From the NCBI GenBank assembly GCA_028287465.1, contig JAQBPO010000004.1, positions 1 to 40,573 of the forward strand: DNA of 40,573 nucleotides, in the 5' to 3' direction. Under the pieces are notes generated by a model. The model was given only the letters and a program-made list of their open reading frames with translations. It searched no databases and was not told the DNA's origin. The stretch's first letter is position 1. Each line of letters starts with the position of its first letter. The position numbers and the translations under genes are program-made. Positions 8,355 to 40,573 of this stretch are shown piece after piece. The stretch is from Fibrobacterota bacterium. Lineage in GTDB: Bacteria; Fibrobacterota; Fibrobacteria; UBA11236.

Positions 8355-9188
8355 GTGATCACCATCTTCGACTATTCCGATTACCGGCTTTTCCTGCGGG
8401 ACTGGCTTCACGCCCAAAAGGCCGATGGGCATCCCATCACTTACGAAACCTTGGGCGAGGCCGCCGGTTTCACCTCCAAAGGATTCCTGACCCAGATCCT
8501 CCAGGGCAAGACAAACCTTCCCGAACGCATGATCGGCGATATCGCGAAAGCGCTGGACCTCCGGAAAAAGGAGCGGGATTATTTCGACCTGCTCGTCCGC
8601 TTCAACCAGGCCAAGCGTGCGGCCCAGCGCGCGGAATTGCACCGCCGCATCCAGGAAGGCTTCAAGGCCGACGTCAAGGCCCTGGCCCTCGATCAGTTCG
8701 AGTACTATCAAAAATGGTATTACTCCGCCATCCGTTCCCTGCTCGGATACTATGAATTCCGCGGCGACTTCGCCGACCTGGCCAAGCAGCTCGAGCCCGC
8801 CATCACCCCGGCCCAGGCGAAACGGGCGGTGGGCCTGCTCGAGGAATTAGGGCTCATCGTCAGGAAGGAGGACGGTCTGTATCACCTGACCGATCGACTC
8901 ATCACTTCCGGGGAATCCTTCGTTTCCCATGCCGTGATCCAATTCCAGCGCGAGACGATGGAGTTGGCCAAGGAGGCCTTGGAAACCTTCCCCAAGAACA
9001 AGCGCAGCGGTTCAACCCTGACCTTGGGGCTTTCCGAGGCCGGATACCGCGCCTTGGAAGAGAAATTGCGGGTGCTGCGCCAGGAGATGGTCGAGATCGC
9101 CCGTTTCGACAAGGAAATCGATCGTGTCATACAGGTCAACCTGCATGCCTTCCCCATGACGCGCAAGCCCAAGGAGGGCCGGAAATGA
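8355..9188 (+). CDS. TIGR02147 family protein, putative HTH regulator
   Basis: The 277-residue protein matches the TIGR02147 pattern: an N-terminal FDYSDYRLFLRDW segment, then a Cro/XRE-like helix-turn-helix (about 28-70: TYETLGEAAGFTSKGFL, ILQGKTNLPE, DIAKALDL). A second helical part follows, with a winged-helix-like stretch (AKRAVGLLEELGLIVRKEDG, about 155-175) and a C-terminal helical segment. The family was defined on F. succinogenes paralogs. I infer a DNA-binding regulator from the HTH; no function is established. The start is GTG at 8355 after GGGAGG. The stop overlaps the next ATG by 4 bp (ATGA), coupling it to the lipoprotein gene. A second family member is at 40212-40573. Confidence 0.88.
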   Translation: MITIFDYSDYRLFLRDWLHAQKADGHPITYETLGEAAGFTSKGFLTQILQGKTNLPERMIGDIAKALDLRKKERDYFDLLVRFNQAKRAAQRAELHRRIQEGFKADVKALALDQFEYYQKWYYSAIRSLLGYYEFRGDFADLAKQLEPAITPAQAKRAVGLLEELGLIVRKEDGLYHLTDRLITSGESFVSHAVIQFQRETMELAKEALETFPKNKRSGSTLTLGLSEAGYRALEEKLRVLRQEMVEIARFDKEIDRVIQVNLHAFPMTRKPKEGRK

Positions 9189-10885
9189 GCGCCGCCAGGA
9201 ACCCGTTCCCGACTTTCGGATTCAACCGCGCTCTTATCGCATCGGCTTGCGCTTGCGCGGCCTTCCTTTTCGCCGCCTGCTTTGAAACCCGCCTGGCCGA
9301 GCCGGACAAGGGAGGCAACTCCTCCGAGACCGTAGCCTTGGTGGACGGAAAGGTCGTGGACGCGTCGGGCTATGCGGTTGCCGGAGCGTGGGTGGCCTTG
9401 GTTCCGGACGATTACAACCCGGTCAAGGGGCAAGCGCTTCCCGCCGGTCTCACGGCGGTCACGGATGCGAAAGGCCATTACTCCCTGACCAAGGTGCCCA
9501 AGGGTCGCTACGGTCTGGAAGCCATCCATCCCAACGATGGAACGCGCCTGTTCACGGAGGGCAATGAATTGCGGGAGGCGAGCGAGACCCTCGCGTCAGG
9601 AACCTTGCGCAAGCCCGGTCGCGTGCGGGTGCGCCTGCCAGACTATTTCAGGCTCCCCGGCGGCTACCTGTTCGTGCCGCATACGCGTTTCGCCTGGCCG
9701 GTCACCGGTACGGCGCTTGAGCATGGCTATATCGACATGGACTCCCTGCCCGCGGCCAGCTATGCCGCCGTGGCCTTCGCCCGGGATACGGACATCTCCG
9801 TTCCGGACACCCTGGGCCGGGACCTCGACGTGCTTCCCGGCGATACCCTTTCGGTGGGGATTTTGGCCGGCTGGAAGAATTCGAGCCGCGTGAACGTCAA
9901 TACGACCGCTTCCGGCGCCTATATCGGTACCGACCTGAAGGGCTTTCCCATGCTCGTCCGCCTGGACGCGGGGAATTTCGATTTCACGACGGCTTCGTCG
10001 GACGGTTCCGACCTTCGCTTCACCAAGCAGGACGGGACTCCCATCGCCCACCAAATCGACCACTGGGACGCCGTCAACAAGGAGGCCGCAGTCTGGGTGG
10101 CCCTCGATAGCGTACGCGGGAACGATTCGACCCAATACTTCCGCATGCATTGGGGCAAATCCGGCGCCTTGTCCCGCTCGGACGGTCCCGCGGTGTTCGG
10201 CGTGGCCGGATTCGCCGCGGTCTGGCATCTCGAGGAGGAGCGCGCGGGAACCGGAGCGGCGGACGTCTACCGCAATTCGGCAGCGAACGCGGATCATGGC
10301 CTCGATTCCCTTTCCGCGACCGACCAGGGCGGCGTCATCGGCAACGGGCACCTCTTCCGCAATGACGAATACATCCGCATCCCATCCGCCACCATGGCCC
10401 TGAAGCCGGTCAGGACCATCACCCTCTCCGCCTGGATAAAACCCACGTCGACCGATTCGGGCGGAGGCGAGATTGCTTCCATGGGGAATGATTACGGAAT
10501 CCGGGTCTCCCCGAACGGGAACGCCTACGTATTCAGCTTCAACGTGCCCAGGTCGGACTCGACCAACTTCCTGCTTGCCACCACGGGCGTCAATCTGCTG
10601 GACGGCGCATGGCACCACTTCGCCGCCAGCATCAACGTGAATCATATCGACATCTACGTGGACGGCGTCCTTGCGGGTAGCGGTACGGATCCCCTGGGGG
10701 TAATCCGTTACGACGGCGGCCCCGATTTCTTCATCGGGCATCATGGGAACGGGGAAACCCAATTCGATTATACCGGATCCATCGACGAAGTCCGGATGAT
10801 GCCCTCGATTCCCGGCGAGGTCTGGCTGCGCTTCGCCTATCTGACCCAGAAGCCGGGCGCAAACGCGGTCAAGATCCAACCCTGA
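9185..10885 (+). CDS. Surface lipoprotein with DUF2341 and LamG-like domains
   Basis: The 566-residue product has a lipoprotein signal with lipobox FAAC (C32). Residues about 47-130 look like a carboxypeptidase-regulatory-like beta-sandwich (VDGKVVDASGYAVAGAWVAL, GHYSLTKVPKGRYGLEA). Residues about 228-320 match DUF2341 (FPMLVRLDAGNFDF, GSDLRFTKQDGTPIAHQID, STQYFRMHWGK). Residues about 338-560 form a LamG/concanavalin-like domain (AVWHLEEE, ITLSAWIKPTS, GAWHHFAASINVNHIDIYVDG, DFFIGHHG, SIDEVRMM). This combination suits outer-surface binding of polysaccharide or other ligands. It is coupled by a 4-bp overlap to the TIGR02147 gene, which may regulate it. No catalytic domain is seen. Confidence 0.87.
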   Translation: MSAARNPFPTFGFNRALIASACACAAFLFAACFETRLAEPDKGGNSSETVALVDGKVVDASGYAVAGAWVALVPDDYNPVKGQALPAGLTAVTDAKGHYSLTKVPKGRYGLEAIHPNDGTRLFTEGNELREASETLASGTLRKPGRVRVRLPDYFRLPGGYLFVPHTRFAWPVTGTALEHGYIDMDSLPAASYAAVAFARDTDISVPDTLGRDLDVLPGDTLSVGILAGWKNSSRVNVNTTASGAYIGTDLKGFPMLVRLDAGNFDFTTASSDGSDLRFTKQDGTPIAHQIDHWDAVNKEAAVWVALDSVRGNDSTQYFRMHWGKSGALSRSDGPAVFGVAGFAAVWHLEEERAGTGAADVYRNSAANADHGLDSLSATDQGGVIGNGHLFRNDEYIRIPSATMALKPVRTITLSAWIKPTSTDSGGGEIASMGNDYGIRVSPNGNAYVFSFNVPRSDSTNFLLATTGVNLLDGAWHHFAASINVNHIDIYVDGVLAGSGTDPLGVIRYDGGPDFFIGHHGNGETQFDYTGSIDEVRMMPSIPGEVWLRFAYLTQKPGANAVKIQP

Positions 10886-34590: not shown

Positions 34591-35244
34591 TTATGCGGCT
34601 TTAAGGCGGAGCTCCGACTCCATCCCGGCGGCCTCGTGCCCGACGCTTTCCTTCATCAGGGAAGGGTGCAGGGCCTGGGCGCGCACGCGGGCCATGGGAC
34701 GGGCCTGGGCGCGGGAGAAGGACAATTCGCGGGCTTGACCCACCTCCTGGAGCTCCTTCTTGAACCGGGTAAGGCGGCGGGTGATGGCTACGCGGGATAC
34801 TCCCATGCGCACGGCGATTTCCCGGTGATTGAGTCCCTGTTCCAGGCTTAGCCGCAGGATTTCCCGGAGCTTGCCGCGCACTTCCGGCATCAGCTTCTCC
34901 AGACGCATGCGATGCAGGACGAGGTCTTCATCGGGTTCGCAATTGTGGAGGGCCTCTTCCTCCTTGGCCAATTGCTCGCGGCGATCCACCTGCCTCTTGA
35001 ACCGCTGGCGGCGGCTGAAGCAATCATGCTTCGCGATGGCGCCGATCCAGGTCAGGGGATCGCATTTCCATTCGAAATCCTTCCATGCCCGGAACGCCTT
35101 GATGAATACGTCCTGGCTGGCATCCTTGGCCTCTTCCCTGTCCTTCAGGAAATAAAGGCAGATGCCGAACACCTTCTGATGGTATCGCTTATAGAGCTGG
35201 GTCTGCCAATCGGAGCAGAGGCGCAAATCTTCATGTCCAGACAT
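34591..35244 (-). CDS. ECF-type RNA polymerase sigma factor
   Basis: The 217-residue protein has sigma region 2 (about 15-85: YKRYHQKVFGICLYFL, DREEAKDASQDVFIKAF, WIGAIAKHDCFSRRQRFKRQ) and region 4 (about 112-165: MPEVRGKLREILRLSLEQ, NHREIAVRMGVSRVAITRRL). This is the ECF layout without regions 1 and 3. A 50-residue Arg/Ala-rich extension follows region 4. No anti-sigma gene adjoins it, so its control is unknown; the extension might be regulatory. AAGGA 4 nt before the ATG supports the start. An 8-bp inverted repeat lies about 95 nt upstream. Confidence 0.9.
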   Translation of the reverse strand: MSGHEDLRLCSDWQTQLYKRYHQKVFGICLYFLKDREEAKDASQDVFIKAFRAWKDFEWKCDPLTWIGAIAKHDCFSRRQRFKRQVDRREQLAKEEEALHNCEPDEDLVLHRMRLEKLMPEVRGKLREILRLSLEQGLNHREIAVRMGVSRVAITRRLTRFKKELQEVGQARELSFSRAQARPMARVRAQALHPSLMKESVGHEAAGMESELRLKAA

Positions 35245-35502: not shown

Positions 35503-35529
35503 AAAAAGCCACGCGGTCAAGCGTGGCTT
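35503..35529 (-). terminator. Intrinsic terminator of the TIGR02147-lipoprotein-caspase-like-repeat protein operon
   Basis: On the minus strand AAGCCACGC-TTGACC-GCGTGGCTT forms a perfect 9-bp stem with a 6-nt loop, and the T run at its 3' side (35503-35507) completes a classical Rho-independent terminator. It begins 36 nt after the stop of the long repeat protein. Confidence 0.9.
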
Positions 35530-35564
35530 CCAGGCAGGCACGGACGGGGCGGAAGGCCCTCGGA

Positions 35565-38411
35565 TCATTTCGGGGCGGCGACGGCTTTCTTTTCAGGGAC
35601 GATCGCCACGGGTGCCGTCGGAGCGGTCGTGGAGGCTTTGGTCGGCGCGGTCGCCGGAGCCGGGATCTCCGGCTTGGCGGGGTTCTGCGCAGGCGACGCG
35701 GGACCGCGGACGGGGGGGGCCTGGCGCACGGTCGAGGCGGTGTTGCCTTGCATTTCCTGGGAGCCGTCGGGCCAGCAGAGGCCGGTTTCCGGACGGCAAG
35801 GGAAGTTGAAATGCAGGATGATGGGGTTGGCCGGCAGGGGTTCCGATAATTTCTTCTCGGACGGAGCCAGGGTGACCTCGGCAAGTACGGTTACCGCAGG
35901 CATCAGGTAGGCACCGTCCATATGTTGGGCGTTCTGCAGCTTCTCCTGGGTCAGGACGTAGCTGTCGAAGGCCTTTATCGGCTTGATGGAACGCACGCGC
36001 AGCCGGTCAGGATGGAAAGGGTAGACGATGCGTTGGGGCCTGGTCCTGGATTTGGTCCAGCGTGCGAGGCTGTCCATGACGAGGTCCGCGGTGGGCGCCT
36101 TCACCAACCCGGCCTCAGCCACGACCGGGTCCCGGAACGAGAAGGCCTGGGTCGTTCCGCCTTCGCCATACGCGAGGCGGATCTGGAAGGCATCGCCCAG
36201 GACGAGGCGATCTTCCATTTTGCGGACGTATCGGCCCGTATAGAAGGCCGGGATGGGATTCGAGACGATCCCCTTGCCTTCGCCTTCCTTTTTCTGGACC
36301 ATGGTGACCTCATAATTCGAGAACACGTAACGGTCCGCCTTCTCCTTCAGGAGCGACTTGAGCATGGCGTCGGTCTTGGAACGGATCAGCGAGTCCGGGA
36401 CCCAGTCCTTTTCCGAAAGCATGGCCACGCCTTCGTTCGAATAGCCGACATCGGAGTTCCCTGTCTCATAGGTCAGGGTGCCGCCCTTCTTGTCATGGTA
36501 GATCCAGTTCACGGCGGTGGATTCGGGCTTGCCCGTTTCACGCATCCCGAACTGGTTCAGGAAGAATTTGATCTGCTCTTTGTTCAGCGGCCGGCTCGTG
36601 ACGCGGAAGCGTTTCGCGGAAACGCTGTCCTTGCGCTGGGGCGGAGGCCTTAACGCGGCGGTCTTGATCGAATCCGCCCGGGCGGCCTTGATGGAAGCTT
36701 CGGTCGAGTCCTTGAGTTTCTTCGCGGTCTCGGTTGAATCCTTCAGGAACTTCTTCCGGGCGGCTGCGGTGGAGTCCCGGGTCTTCTTGGCGGCGACGGT
36801 CGAGTCCTTGACGAATCTCGACCGGGCCGCAAAAGTGGAATCCCGGGTCTTTTTCGCCGCGGCAATCGAGTCGTTCCTGGTTTTGGCCTGCAGGGCCAAG
36901 GCGGCTGCCGAGGTCTTCCTTGCGGCGGCAGTGGAGTCCCTCACGAACTTGGCGCGAGCGGCTACGGTGGAATCCCGGGTCTTTTTGGCCGTTGCCGTGG
37001 AGTCCCTGATGAATTTCGCATTCGCGGCGGCGGTGGAATCCTTGGTCTTCCTTGCCGTGGCCGTGGAATCCTTGACGAATTTAGCGCGCAGGGCGGCCGT
37101 AGAATCCCTGGTTTTCTTCGCGGTCGCGGTTGAGTCCTTGACGAACTTCGCATGCGCGGCCGTGGTCGAGTCCCTGGTCTTCCTGACCTGGGCGGTGGAA
37201 TCCCGCACGAACTTCGCATGGGCTGCCGCCGTGGAGTCTTTGGAGCGCTTGGCCGCGGCCGTGGAGTCCTTTAGGGCCTTGGCATGGATGGCGGCGGTGG
37301 AATCGGCGGTCTTTTTCGCGGCAGCTGCGCTCTTGATGGAATCGGCGCGGGCGGCCTTATGGGCAACCGTTAGGGAGTCCTTCCTCGCTTTCGCGGTCTT
37401 GATCGAATCCGCCTTGGCGGCGGCGGCGGCTTTCGCGGCCTCGGCTTTCGCTTTGGCGGCACCCTGGGCCGAATCGGCCTTGGCCTTCGCCAGGGCCTTG
37501 TCGGCTTCGGCCTTGGCCTTATACGCGGCCTTCAGGGAATCGGCCTTGGCGGCGTTCTGGGCCGCCGTGACCGAGTCGCGCAGGGCCTTGGCGGCCTTGG
37601 CCGCTTTCAGGGAATCGGCCTGTACGGCTTTGCGGATGGATGCGGCCGAATCCTTGGCGGCCTTGGCGCGCAAGGCCGAATCCAAGGACGCCTTCTTGAC
37701 CGCGGCCAGGGAATCCCTGACGGACTTGTGGCGGGCATCGGTGGAATCCTTCACCGCCTTGGCGCGGGCGGCGGTCGAGTCACGCTTGAATTTGGCGCGG
37801 GCCGCGAGGGAATCGCTTACGGCCTTCCTGCGCACCGCGATGGAGTCATTGACCGCCTTGGTGCGGATGGCGATGGAGTCCCTGACGGCCTTGGTGCGGA
37901 CGGCGATGGAATCCTGCACGAACTTCTTGCGGGCTTCCGTCACCTTGCGGGCGGCGGCGATGGAGTCACGGGCCGCCTTTTTCGCGGCCGCGGTGGAATC
38001 GCGCACGACCTTGGCGCGGGCTTCGGCGACCTTGCGCGCAAGGGCGGTGGAATCCTGGATCGCCTTCTGCCGGGCGATTGCGGAGTCCTTGGCGGCTTTC
38101 CGGACGGCGGCGATGGAATCCTTGACCGCTTTATTGCGGGCGGCGAGGGAGTCGCTGGATGCCTTCTTGGCCAGGGCCGTGGAGTCCTTGGCGGACAGCT
38201 TGGGCGCGGCTTTGGCGGTGTCTCGGGCCGGTGTCGCCGCCGGAGCCGAGGTAATGGCGATCCCGGATGAGGCTGAGGGAGCCGCTGTCGCGGCCGGGGC
38301 CGGCGCGGCGGCCGCATAGGCCGCGGGTGCGGGCCTGGCCGCTGCTTCGGAGGTGGCGAAGGTCGGGGCGGCGATGGCCGCCAGAATCAGGTACAAAGCA
38401 GCTTTATTCAT
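35565..38411 (-). CDS. Exported 948-residue protein with hendecad helical repeats
   Basis: I do not recognise a family for the whole protein. The start is the ATG at 38411 (GGAG 7 nt upstream), which opens directly into a signal peptide (MNKAALYLILAAIAAPTFA). An Ala/Pro linker follows, then about 530 residues (70-600) of Lys/Arg/Asp/Ser/Ala repeats of 11 and 22 residues. These predict one long helix or coiled coil, TolA-like in composition. Residues about 605-880 form a separate globular domain (FFLNQFGMRETGKPESTAVNW, YVFSNYEVTMVQKK, YPFHPDRLRVRSIKPIKAF), then a Pro/Ala/Thr-rich tail. It may span the periplasm or act as a surface stalk. It is the last gene of a four-gene operon. Confidence 0.85.
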   Translation of the reverse strand: MNKAALYLILAAIAAPTFATSEAAARPAPAAYAAAAPAPAATAAPSASSGIAITSAPAATPARDTAKAAPKLSAKDSTALAKKASSDSLAARNKAVKDSIAAVRKAAKDSAIARQKAIQDSTALARKVAEARAKVVRDSTAAAKKAARDSIAAARKVTEARKKFVQDSIAVRTKAVRDSIAIRTKAVNDSIAVRRKAVSDSLAARAKFKRDSTAARAKAVKDSTDARHKSVRDSLAAVKKASLDSALRAKAAKDSAASIRKAVQADSLKAAKAAKALRDSVTAAQNAAKADSLKAAYKAKAEADKALAKAKADSAQGAAKAKAEAAKAAAAAKADSIKTAKARKDSLTVAHKAARADSIKSAAAAKKTADSTAAIHAKALKDSTAAAKRSKDSTAAAHAKFVRDSTAQVRKTRDSTTAAHAKFVKDSTATAKKTRDSTAALRAKFVKDSTATARKTKDSTAAANAKFIRDSTATAKKTRDSTVAARAKFVRDSTAAARKTSAAALALQAKTRNDSIAAAKKTRDSTFAARSRFVKDSTVAAKKTRDSTAAARKKFLKDSTETAKKLKDSTEASIKAARADSIKTAALRPPPQRKDSVSAKRFRVTSRPLNKEQIKFFLNQFGMRETGKPESTAVNWIYHDKKGGTLTYETGNSDVGYSNEGVAMLSEKDWVPDSLIRSKTDAMLKSLLKEKADRYVFSNYEVTMVQKKEGEGKGIVSNPIPAFYTGRYVRKMEDRLVLGDAFQIRLAYGEGGTTQAFSFRDPVVAEAGLVKAPTADLVMDSLARWTKSRTRPQRIVYPFHPDRLRVRSIKPIKAFDSYVLTQEKLQNAQHMDGAYLMPAVTVLAEVTLAPSEKKLSEPLPANPIILHFNFPCRPETGLCWPDGSQEMQGNTASTVRQAPPVRGPASPAQNPAKPEIPAPATAPTKASTTAPTAPVAIVPEKKAVAAPK
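36697..37270 (-). repeat. Eight 66-bp units encoding a 22-residue repeat
   Basis: The units follow the pattern KTRDSTAAxxAKFVKDSTATAK, each exactly 22 residues, with the DST triplets alternately 12 and 10 residues apart. The sixth unit is degenerate but keeps the length. Twenty-two is twice eleven, so the period matches a hendecad coiled coil. Confidence 0.85.
37630..38160 (-). repeat. 33-bp units encoding an 11-residue (hendecad) repeat
   Basis: Units such as KAVRDSIAIRT, KAVNDSIAVRR and KAVSDSLAARA are exactly 11 residues; seven stand in a row. Two 7-residue inserts (KVAEARA, KVTEARK) break the series by exactly one heptad, which keeps a coiled-coil phase. Confidence 0.85.
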
Positions 38412-38462
38412 GCTGGGCTCCACGGAAAAAAAGGAAGAAGGGATCAAGGAATGCGCCGGTAC

Positions 38463-39299
38463 TCAGTACTGGGGCGTGCCTATGACCTTGGAGTAGTAAT
38501 AGCCGGTATTGGCCGTGGCCGCGGTATAATCGTGGTTCACGAACCTGAAGGTTTCCCGGCAGTAGTCGATGCGGTTGTTGGGCACCTGGGCGGAAAGGCA
38601 GCCGGGCTCAAGGCCTTTGCCCGGGTAGAGATGCTTGTACCCGTAGTTCGCGTTGGCATCGAAAAAGGCGTTGAGAAGGCTTTTCTCCCCGTAGGTCCAC
38701 TGGGACCAGAAGCTGTTGTACATGTCCCAGCTTAGGTTATTGTCGAAGACGAAGGATTTGAATCCGAGCATGGCCTTGATACCCTTGAAGGCGGGCTGCC
38801 AGAGGGTGGCGGGGGCCCCGCCGTTGAAGAGGGAGCAACTATTGGTCAGGAACCAACGGTTATAACCGGCCCCGAGATTCAACTCAACCGGGTTGACCTG
38901 GCCGTATCCGGCGCTGGCTCCCAGGTATGGGGCGCCATTGACGCCGTGACCGGCATAAAAGATGAAGTCGCAGTAGCCGCGGTTCCCATAGGCGCTGCTG
39001 GTGCTGGTAATCGCGGCCTTGGTGACCTGGGTATTGCGGGTATCCAGGGCGAAATTCGGGGAACTCGTTCCCGTCCCCGCAGCCGCGGCCGAATTCGAGT
39101 AGCCCGGCACGTTCGCATTCGACGCCCAGTAGAAGTTCTGGGCGGAGCCGACCATGTATCCCAGGTTCAACATCCCGCCGCCGTTACTGGAATAATCATC
39201 AATGGAATAGGTCCCGATATCCATGGATACGGGAAAAGCCCGGGGCAAGCCGCAGGCCAGAACGCAAAAAACAATGAAGGGAAGGATTTTATTCTTCAT
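38463..39299 (-). CDS. Secreted caspase-fold-like protein (DUF6345-like)
   Basis: The 278-residue product has a signal peptide (about 1-25). A His-Gly motif after a hydrophobic strand (CDFIFYAGHG, H118) and a Cys after another strand (RWFLTNSCSLF, C155) give the His/Cys dyad order of clan CD peptidases. WQPAFKGIKAMLGF after the Cys resembles DUF6345 proteins. Six cysteines remain after the signal peptide. It may be a cysteine peptidase or an inactive relative; specificity cannot be told. AGGAG 6 nt before the ATG at 39299 fixes the start; a longer open frame upstream overlaps the previous gene. It lies 25 bp after the lipoprotein gene. Confidence 0.8.
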   Translation of the reverse strand: MKNKILPFIVFCVLACGLPRAFPVSMDIGTYSIDDYSSNGGGMLNLGYMVGSAQNFYWASNANVPGYSNSAAAAGTGTSSPNFALDTRNTQVTKAAITSTSSAYGNRGYCDFIFYAGHGVNGAPYLGASAGYGQVNPVELNLGAGYNRWFLTNSCSLFNGGAPATLWQPAFKGIKAMLGFKSFVFDNNLSWDMYNSFWSQWTYGEKSLLNAFFDANANYGYKHLYPGKGLEPGCLSAQVPNNRIDYCRETFRFVNHDYTAATANTGYYYSKVIGTPQY

Positions 39300-39324
39300 G
39301 CACCACTCCTGCCGAAACGATCGG

Positions 39325-40197
39325 TCAAAGGCTATTTGAGCGAATCGAAATGGCGGACATGGTATCGAAAACGAAGAGCCTGGTTCCGGCCTCGATAATC
39401 CTGTAAGGAGTATGATGCGTCGCATCCTGCGGACCATAGTTCATTTTCACTTCGTAGACTTCCATCCGATTCGTCCCGCCGTCCGATTGGGCAAGCCGAA
39501 GCAGTCTGATCGGAAAGCGTCCGTTTGGAAGCGGACCAATCGTGATAGCTGTATCAGGGCTTGCCTTGAAAAAAAACGGCGAGCCGGGAATATAGAAACA
39601 CCATTCCACTTTTCCCTCGGGGTATAACCTCACATTCGCAAGCAGGGAATCGGGTACGCCGTGGAAGGCGTAATGCGGGTCGATGAGGTGGGTTTCGAGA
39701 TCCGGTTTTTCAGAAAAGGGAGACCTGAGGATTTTTTTGAGCGTGCTTGAGAAGTAGAATCCGGTGATAAGCGCTTGATTCCTGCCACTTTCGAACAATA
39801 TTGAAAACGCAACGGTATCCTTTCCGGCGCTATTCAATCGACGCAAGGCTTCCAACGGGACATCGAAGGAATCGACGTTCGAGACCGGAAAACTCGTGGA
39901 TTCCGTGGTATCGAGGGCGGGGATGCTTCCAGCAAGGTAGAGCGTCGCCTTTCCGGTCACCTTCATCGGGATTCCAGTCGAATCATAAATCCGCAATACG
40001 ACCAGGGAGTCCGCCACCCCCTTCAAATAGGGATGGTGGGAACCGGCATCTTCCTGGGGCCAATTCGTGCTCGACGTGGCTCCCGCAATCAGGTTTTGAT
40101 CTTCGATCCTCTCTCCGGCATTCCGTCCCGGACCGGTCGCATCGGGTTTAAGGCATCCGGCCACGAGCAGCATCGAGATCGCGAGAATCCGTTTCAT
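39325..40197 (-). CDS. Lipoprotein of unknown function, partner of the TIGR02147 gene
   Basis: The 290-residue product has a lipoprotein signal (MKRILAISMLLVAGC, lipobox VAGC). The rest is beta-rich with no family I recognise: DSLVVLRIYDSTGIPMKV and VTGKATLYLAGSIPALD suggest Ig-like strands, and WCFYIPGSPFFFKASPD, RFPIRLLRLAQSDGG and THHTPYRIIEAGTR come later. The ATG at 40197 has GGGGAG 7 nt upstream. An ATG at 40215 overlaps the previous stop by 4 bp (ATGA) but lacks a ribosome site. Either way it is coupled to the TIGR02147 gene and followed 25 bp later by the caspase-like gene. Confidence 0.8.
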   Translation of the reverse strand: MKRILAISMLLVAGCLKPDATGPGRNAGERIEDQNLIAGATSSTNWPQEDAGSHHPYLKGVADSLVVLRIYDSTGIPMKVTGKATLYLAGSIPALDTTESTSFPVSNVDSFDVPLEALRRLNSAGKDTVAFSILFESGRNQALITGFYFSSTLKKILRSPFSEKPDLETHLIDPHYAFHGVPDSLLANVRLYPEGKVEWCFYIPGSPFFFKASPDTAITIGPLPNGRFPIRLLRLAQSDGGTNRMEVYEVKMNYGPQDATHHTPYRIIEAGTRLFVFDTMSAISIRSNSL

Positions 40198-40211
40198 GCG
40201 GCAACTCCCCT

Positions 40212-40573
40212 TCATTGGGTATTGGGGATGATCTGGAACACTACGGTGCAGACCTTGTCCGTCCCCTTGTCCTTGGCGATGATGTCCTTCATCTCGTCCT
40301 GGAACTCGGAGAATTTCTTGCGGATGGCCCTCAGGCTTTCCGTCGAAACCGTGGTGACCTGCGTGCTGAAGGCCTTGAACTTGGTGATGTCCGATTTCGC
40401 GAGGTCCGTGGTCAGTCCCTGGATCTGGCGGTTGTATTCCAGCGCCACTTCGCCGCTGAAGCCTCCCGAGACCACGTGGTTGCGTGTCAGGGCGTAGCCG
40501 CGATCGGACTTCTTGACCAGTTCGAGCTCCATCAGGAGGTCGATGGATTCCTGCACCTGCTTCTCGGTGAGCG
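40212..40573 (-). CDS. TIGR02147 family protein, C-terminal part (cut by window edge)
   Basis: The gene enters from beyond the right edge; about 120 C-terminal codons are visible. LTEKQVQESIDLLMELELVK aligns with ITPAQAKRAVGLLEELGLIV of the protein at 8355-9188. The following GYALTRNHVVSGG, the helix with VALEYNRQIQGL, and FKAFSTQVTTVSTESLRAIR match its second half. It is thus a second TIGR02147 member; its N-terminal HTH would lie outside the window. It is the first visible gene of the operon with the lipoprotein, caspase-like and repeat-protein genes. Confidence 0.85.
   Translation of the reverse strand, partial: LTEKQVQESIDLLMELELVKKSDRGYALTRNHVVSGGFSGEVALEYNRQIQGLTTDLAKSDITKFKAFSTQVTTVSTESLRAIRKKFSEFQDEMKDIIAKDKGTDKVCTVVFQIIPNTQ

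Follow-up and report, generated by a model that had tools for sequence, protein, structure and literature searches.

At one end of a contig from a Fibrobacterota genome (5.8 Mb, 98% complete), four minus-strand genes in a row encode a regulator, a lipoprotein, a DUF6345 protein, and a very long helical protein. Do these genes act as one system, and what might that system do? The window that we analyzed is the whole contig (C99; 40,573 nt), and the coordinates given below for the four genes and the hairpin behind them refer to features on its minus strand. The preliminary description had treated the four genes as a single unit. The reading that we favor, and to which we assign slightly less than an even chance, is that the locus encodes a secreted clan CD-like DUF6345 enzyme and a YycH/YycI/PepSY-propeptide-like partner acting in trans, with the partner mounted on a stalk and both genes placed behind a regulator/lipoprotein pair.

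Layout of the locus and its regulator/lipoprotein dyad

The four genes are consecutive, and a check of the open reading frames placed their intergenic gaps at 14, 25, and 51 bp, just as had been described. The first gene (40212..40571) is truncated by the contig end, which leaves the C-terminal 119 residues of a TIGR02147/DUF4423 regulator; despite this truncation, it scores 57.3 bits against TIGR02147 (cut-off 50; full-length homologues reach 168-269 bits) and 41 bits against DUF4423. It is followed by a gene for a 290-aa lipoprotein (39325..40197; MKRILAISMLLVAGC) with a signal peptide and the lipobox LVAGC, and by one for a DUF6345 protein with a signal peptide (38463..39299), predicted from its PF19872 match, its His and Cys residues, and clan CD side matches to be a clan CD-like (caspase-fold) cysteine hydrolase. 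The fourth gene (35565..38411) encodes an exported 948-aa helical protein whose translation and homologues in relatives delimit a signal peptide, a hendecad stalk, a YycI-like domain, and a Pro/Ala-rich tail. Because homologues of genes 2-4 occur in all five congeneric genomes, we consider the reading frames of these genes to be genuine.

The operon is closed by an intrinsic terminator-like hairpin (35504..35531), located where it had been reported, with an 11-pair stem followed by a T-rich tail; it is the best of its kind in a terminator scan of the region. Since terminator-like sites are no more common in the region than in shuffled sequences (6 versus 7.5 ± 3.0), the call is based on the position and stem quality of this hairpin. 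Just past it, an ECF sigma factor gene (34591-35244) lies in the same orientation, as it does in congeners G002-G005.

The window's own genome carries 53 TIGR02147 genes, and two distant genomes, G021 and G130, carry 34 and 25, respectively. A lipoprotein gene directly follows the regulator, mostly with a 4-nt overlap, in 27 of the 30 cases examined in the own genome (L122-L151), and 13 of 15 regulators in each of the two distant genomes (L152-L181) have such a follower. In a control set of 37 genes from the window, the count was only 2, and one of these two itself comes directly after a TIGR02147 gene. Judged by these gene orders, genes 1 and 2 are one copy of a phylum-wide regulator/lipoprotein dyad that is present dozens of times per genome. 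Compared with the TIGR02147 (Fsuc_second) paralog family, they show the same arrangement and nothing distinctive except what follows them. A further copy of the dyad is found elsewhere in the window (8355-9188 with 9185-10885). A role in anti-phage defense was also considered and set aside: PADLOC gave no convincing match for genes 2-4 and only weak ones for gene 1, and the proteins are exported.

Our comparison of the own genome (G000) with five congeners (G001-G005) revealed that the lipoprotein, the DUF6345 protein, and the C-terminal domain of gene 4 are encoded side by side in every one of the five, and that a TIGR02147 gene, full-length there, heads the cluster in the four whose contig reaches that far. 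One could nevertheless regard genes 1-2 and genes 3-4 as neighbors without a functional connection, the two pairs being the real units, given that TIGR02147 and lipoprotein genes occur together dozens of times per genome without DUF6345, and that the flanks (cytochrome oxidase, ECF sigma factor, and 2-oxoacid oxidoreductase genes) are also syntenic in the genus, so that conservation of the four genes at this level could be, at least partly, plain inheritance. However, clusters of the four gene kinds, flanked by different genes, are also present in two other families of the phylum, in the same order in G143 and in a changed order in G146, which makes a complete lack of connection unlikely and some functional link between the dyad and the pair possible.

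The expectation that the four genes would co-occur repeatedly in relatives was thus borne out in congeners, G143, and G146, whereas the idea that they form one conserved unit was not: the majority of DUF6345/partner pairs lack a nearby TIGR02147 gene, genes 1-2 are a generic dyad, and the conserved unit consists of genes 3-4. Collectively, the locus is a composite operon made up of this generic dyad, a conserved DUF6345/YycI-like pair, and a genus-specific stalk fusion.

Conservation of the DUF6345/partner pair

Outside the genus, we searched with two profiles, one built for the DUF6345 protein and the other for the C-terminal domain of gene 4 (35757..36623), hereafter the partner; the homologues from the named collection are Fibrobacteria/Fibrobacteres MAGs. 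Annotated DUF6345 proteins also exist beyond the phylum, for example in Methanosarcina acetivorans. In all 29 loci obtained with DUF6345 queries, a partner gene adjoins the DUF6345 gene on the same strand. Of these 29 assignments, 27 are secure by sequence, and in leave-out tests the paralogous loci of the own genome (G000:C12) and of G002 (G002:C24) gave E-values of 7e-10 and 1e-6. The most divergent partner form, found in G163 with a relative in G159, was assigned by position and architecture, and the G163 protein fails the leave-out test. The partner gene may lie upstream or downstream, many pairs overlap by a few nucleotides, as does the Fibrobacter pair of G060 (L089), and the pair is spread over many Fibrobacterota genera. 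A partner-directed search added 9 further DUF6345 loci, all paired, as well as partner genes without DUF6345. Since every DUF6345 locus found is paired, the partner is, on sequence grounds, the conserved mate of DUF6345. The pair is apparently undescribed; neither DUF6345 nor TIGR02147 was found mentioned in the literature searched, which omits most subscription journals, and within the same scope no paper linking Fibrobacter and orthocaspase was found.

Some loci show additional features. A third gene, for a small cysteine-containing lipoprotein (~130-185 aa), frequently accompanies the pair in Fibrobacter and at the paralogous locus of the window genome (L041, L042, L043, L085, L087-L089, L091-L093, L105, L106, and L112); leave-one-out profile E-values for this family go down to 1e-26, with L043 not significant. 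A longer DUF6345 form (~480 aa) with an extra N-terminal region occurs at L080 and L081, in two other families of the phylum. At five Fibrobacter loci (L109, L110, L111, L114, and L116), a lipoprotein form of the partner lies beside a metallo-beta-lactamase-like hydrolase gene with no adjacent DUF6345 gene, and the partner must therefore have other uses. Finally, the pair at L048 is located on a contig labelled candidate division KSB1. This contig was the sole match in a search of the KSB1 phylum and was produced by the study that also yielded a Chitinispirillaceae match, and a plasmid search with the KSB1 homologue gave no match. Its presence in KSB1 possibly reflects transfer or a binning error.

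Stalk and predicted fold of the partner

The stalk of gene 4 covers residues 71-587 (36651..38201). Residue-identity autocorrelation revealed an 11-residue periodicity above chance in this stretch (z = 12.5 at lag 11 and 22.3 at lag 22, with -2.7 at lag 7), as in a hendecad coiled coil. The earlier proposal of a helical protein with a signal peptide and a separate C-terminal domain is supported. The stalk itself is variable: hendecads are absent from the G001 protein, which keeps the C-terminal domain, and G002 divides the parts between two genes, one for a 538-aa hendecad protein and one for a separate 371-aa lipoprotein-type partner. Because G002 encodes stalk and partner as two genes, and its hendecad protein shares 46% identity with the window's gene 4 at the N-terminus, gene 4 is best read as a fusion of the two. 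Between the two genes of G002 there is a broken remnant of a second gene-2-like lipoprotein (L037:5213-5596), which suggests a past duplication of the cassette. By these comparisons the hendecad stalk is real but dispensable and lies outside the conserved core, and, given its variability in relatives, the conserved unit requires only the C-terminal domain of gene 4.

This variability bears on the proposal of a surface apparatus in which the helical protein is either processed by the DUF6345 peptidase or displays it, with the C-terminal domain serving as cargo or docking site. The adjacency of the genes, the export of all products, and the capacity of a stalk to project a domain fit such an arrangement, but the DUF6345/partner pair persists where the stalk is missing (G001) or is a separate gene (G002), and partners outside the genus, at roughly 260-400 aa, lack it altogether. 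We therefore find processing or display improbable; the C-terminal domain, with its predicted YycI/PepSY-like fold, is more suggestive of an inhibitor or chaperone.

That fold comes from an AlphaFold2 model of the domain (pLDDT 81, pTM 0.76). A Foldseek search with the model returned YycH (1e-6), YycI (6e-6 to 4e-5), and the propeptide-bearing vibriolysin MCP-02 (2.3e-3), so that the partner domain, as modeled, has a YycI-like fold within the YycH/YycI or PepSY range. The Pfam scan of partner family members (A2) at E-values up to 1 found no YycH/YycI or PepSY family and no significant match, and a PDB search with the partner profile gave no matches.

YycH and YycI regulate a histidine kinase, not a peptidase. 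The partner resembles these Bacillus and Staphylococcus proteins in predicted fold (Foldseek E-values of 1e-6 to 4e-5) and in being extracytoplasmic, whereas its sequence is only ~11% identical to theirs, its mate is a peptidase-like protein instead of the kinase WalK, and it has a signal peptide or lipobox in place of a membrane anchor, being fused here to the hendecad stalk. The likeness could nonetheless point to a YycI-like role of the partner as sensor or regulator, with DUF6345 cleaving or binding it and an envelope signal passing to the TIGR02147 protein or to the downstream ECF sigma factor. The modeled fold would suit such a role, as would the regulator gene in front and the sigma factor gene just downstream, the latter seen in the window and in G002, G003, G004, and G005. 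This sensor role is doubtful, however, as most DUF6345/partner pairs have no TIGR02147 gene in their vicinity, and the sigma factor gene, located past the terminator, shares its synteny with unrelated oxidase genes.

We prefer a trans-acting inhibitor or chaperone, for which the PepSY-type proteins provide the closest analogies. The partner shows a weak structural match to vibriolysin MCP-02 (as above), which bears its propeptide and belongs to the M4 metallopeptidases with their PepSY/FTP propeptides, and the arrangement that we propose here, in which a PepSY-type protein acts in trans on an enzyme, has a counterpart in YpeB-SleB, where the PepSY protein YpeB inhibits SleB (PMC4282423). An inhibitory role has also been proposed for periplasmic domains of the PepSY/BLIP type, whose binding partner would lie either on their own polypeptide or on a different one (PMC2954215). 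Unlike in the M4 and YpeB-SleB systems, the enzyme here would be a clan CD-like cysteine hydrolase and not a metallopeptidase or peptidoglycan hydrolase; unlike the M4 propeptide, the partner has a gene of its own at all loci seen, and it lacks a PepSY Pfam match.

The DUF6345 protein as a candidate enzyme

The DUF6345 protein matches PF19872 with 42 bits (cut-off 26.9) over profile positions 65-171 of 221. In 38 of 38 divergent homologues, whose pairwise identity has a median of 22%, three residues are invariant: His118 (YAGHG; codon at 38946..38948), the Gly after it, and Cys155 (NSC in TNSC; codon at 38835..38837), the His and Cys forming the putative catalytic dyad. The His precedes the Cys by 32-49 residues, and each follows a hydrophobic stretch. 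For comparison, the published dyad spacing is 42-49 residues in caspase-7, PmC11, and MARTX-CPD, and every clan CD family has a conserved Gly next to the His (PMC4357240). The protein thus has the His-then-Cys order and the Gly after His of clan CD.

When 37 homologues were scanned singly against Pfam, the peptidase families among the side matches were those of clan CD only (C25, 0.002; C13, 0.018; C14, 0.03; CHAT, 0.31), with the C25, C13, and C14 matches coming from one or two homologues and no described clan CD family being matched significantly. The best PDB match of the DUF6345 profile (A1) was metacaspase MCA2, aligned at its YSGHG motif, with an E-value of 1.5 that is not significant alone. 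A PDB match to OspC3, obtained with a larger profile (A6), lies outside the His/Cys motifs and was attributed to chance. The structure model was poor (pLDDT 37), and its Foldseek matches were mainly CHAT and caspases, none of them significant (best E-value, 0.17). DUF6345 thus resembles caspases (C14), gingipain (C25), legumain (C13), and clostripain (C11) in the order and spacing of the dyad, the Gly, and its weak matches, while differing from clan CD peptidases in being a Pfam family of its own with no significant family match and a poor fold model. Together, the motifs and the individually weak but convergent matches make a clan CD-like fold likely, in agreement with the original caspase guess; peptidase activity is putative, and to our knowledge no enzyme activity has been reported for any DUF6345 protein. 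That silence, and the weak peptidase similarity, would also fit a non-enzymatic caspase-fold protein such as a binding protein or adhesin, which we consider very improbable given that a pure scaffold would not need a His and Cys kept invariant at 22% median identity.

We postulate that the partner most likely acts in trans, binding the DUF6345 enzyme either in the periplasm or on the cell surface. By analogy with M4 propeptides and YpeB-SleB (PMC4282423, PMC2954215), and given its predicted YycI/PepSY-like fold, it would act as an inhibitor or as a folding chaperone, i.e., an intermolecular prodomain, such that DUF6345 activity would be released only in the proper place or upon the proper signal. 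The hendecad stalk of this genus may serve as a spacer for the complex within the envelope, and the TIGR02147 regulator and lipoprotein in front probably control or anchor the pair. More broadly, we suggest, tentatively, that DUF6345 may be a new secreted family of clan CD cysteine peptidases that receives its prodomain in trans from an obligate YycI/PepSY-fold partner, often together with a small lipoprotein, and that is stalk-mounted in the present case.

Our analysis shows the apparent four-gene operon to be misleading and divides it into two modules, each a subject for study in its own right, one of which, TIGR02147 with its lipoprotein, fills Fibrobacterota genomes with dozens of copies. 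If the proposal for the other is true, it would give a function to a domain of unknown function and add a type of peptidase to clan CD. It would also connect a cysteine peptidase with the YycH/YycI/PepSY fold by way of a conserved gene pair, and the old proposal of PepSY-like periplasmic inhibitors could then be put to a direct test on two proteins of a cultured Fibrobacter.
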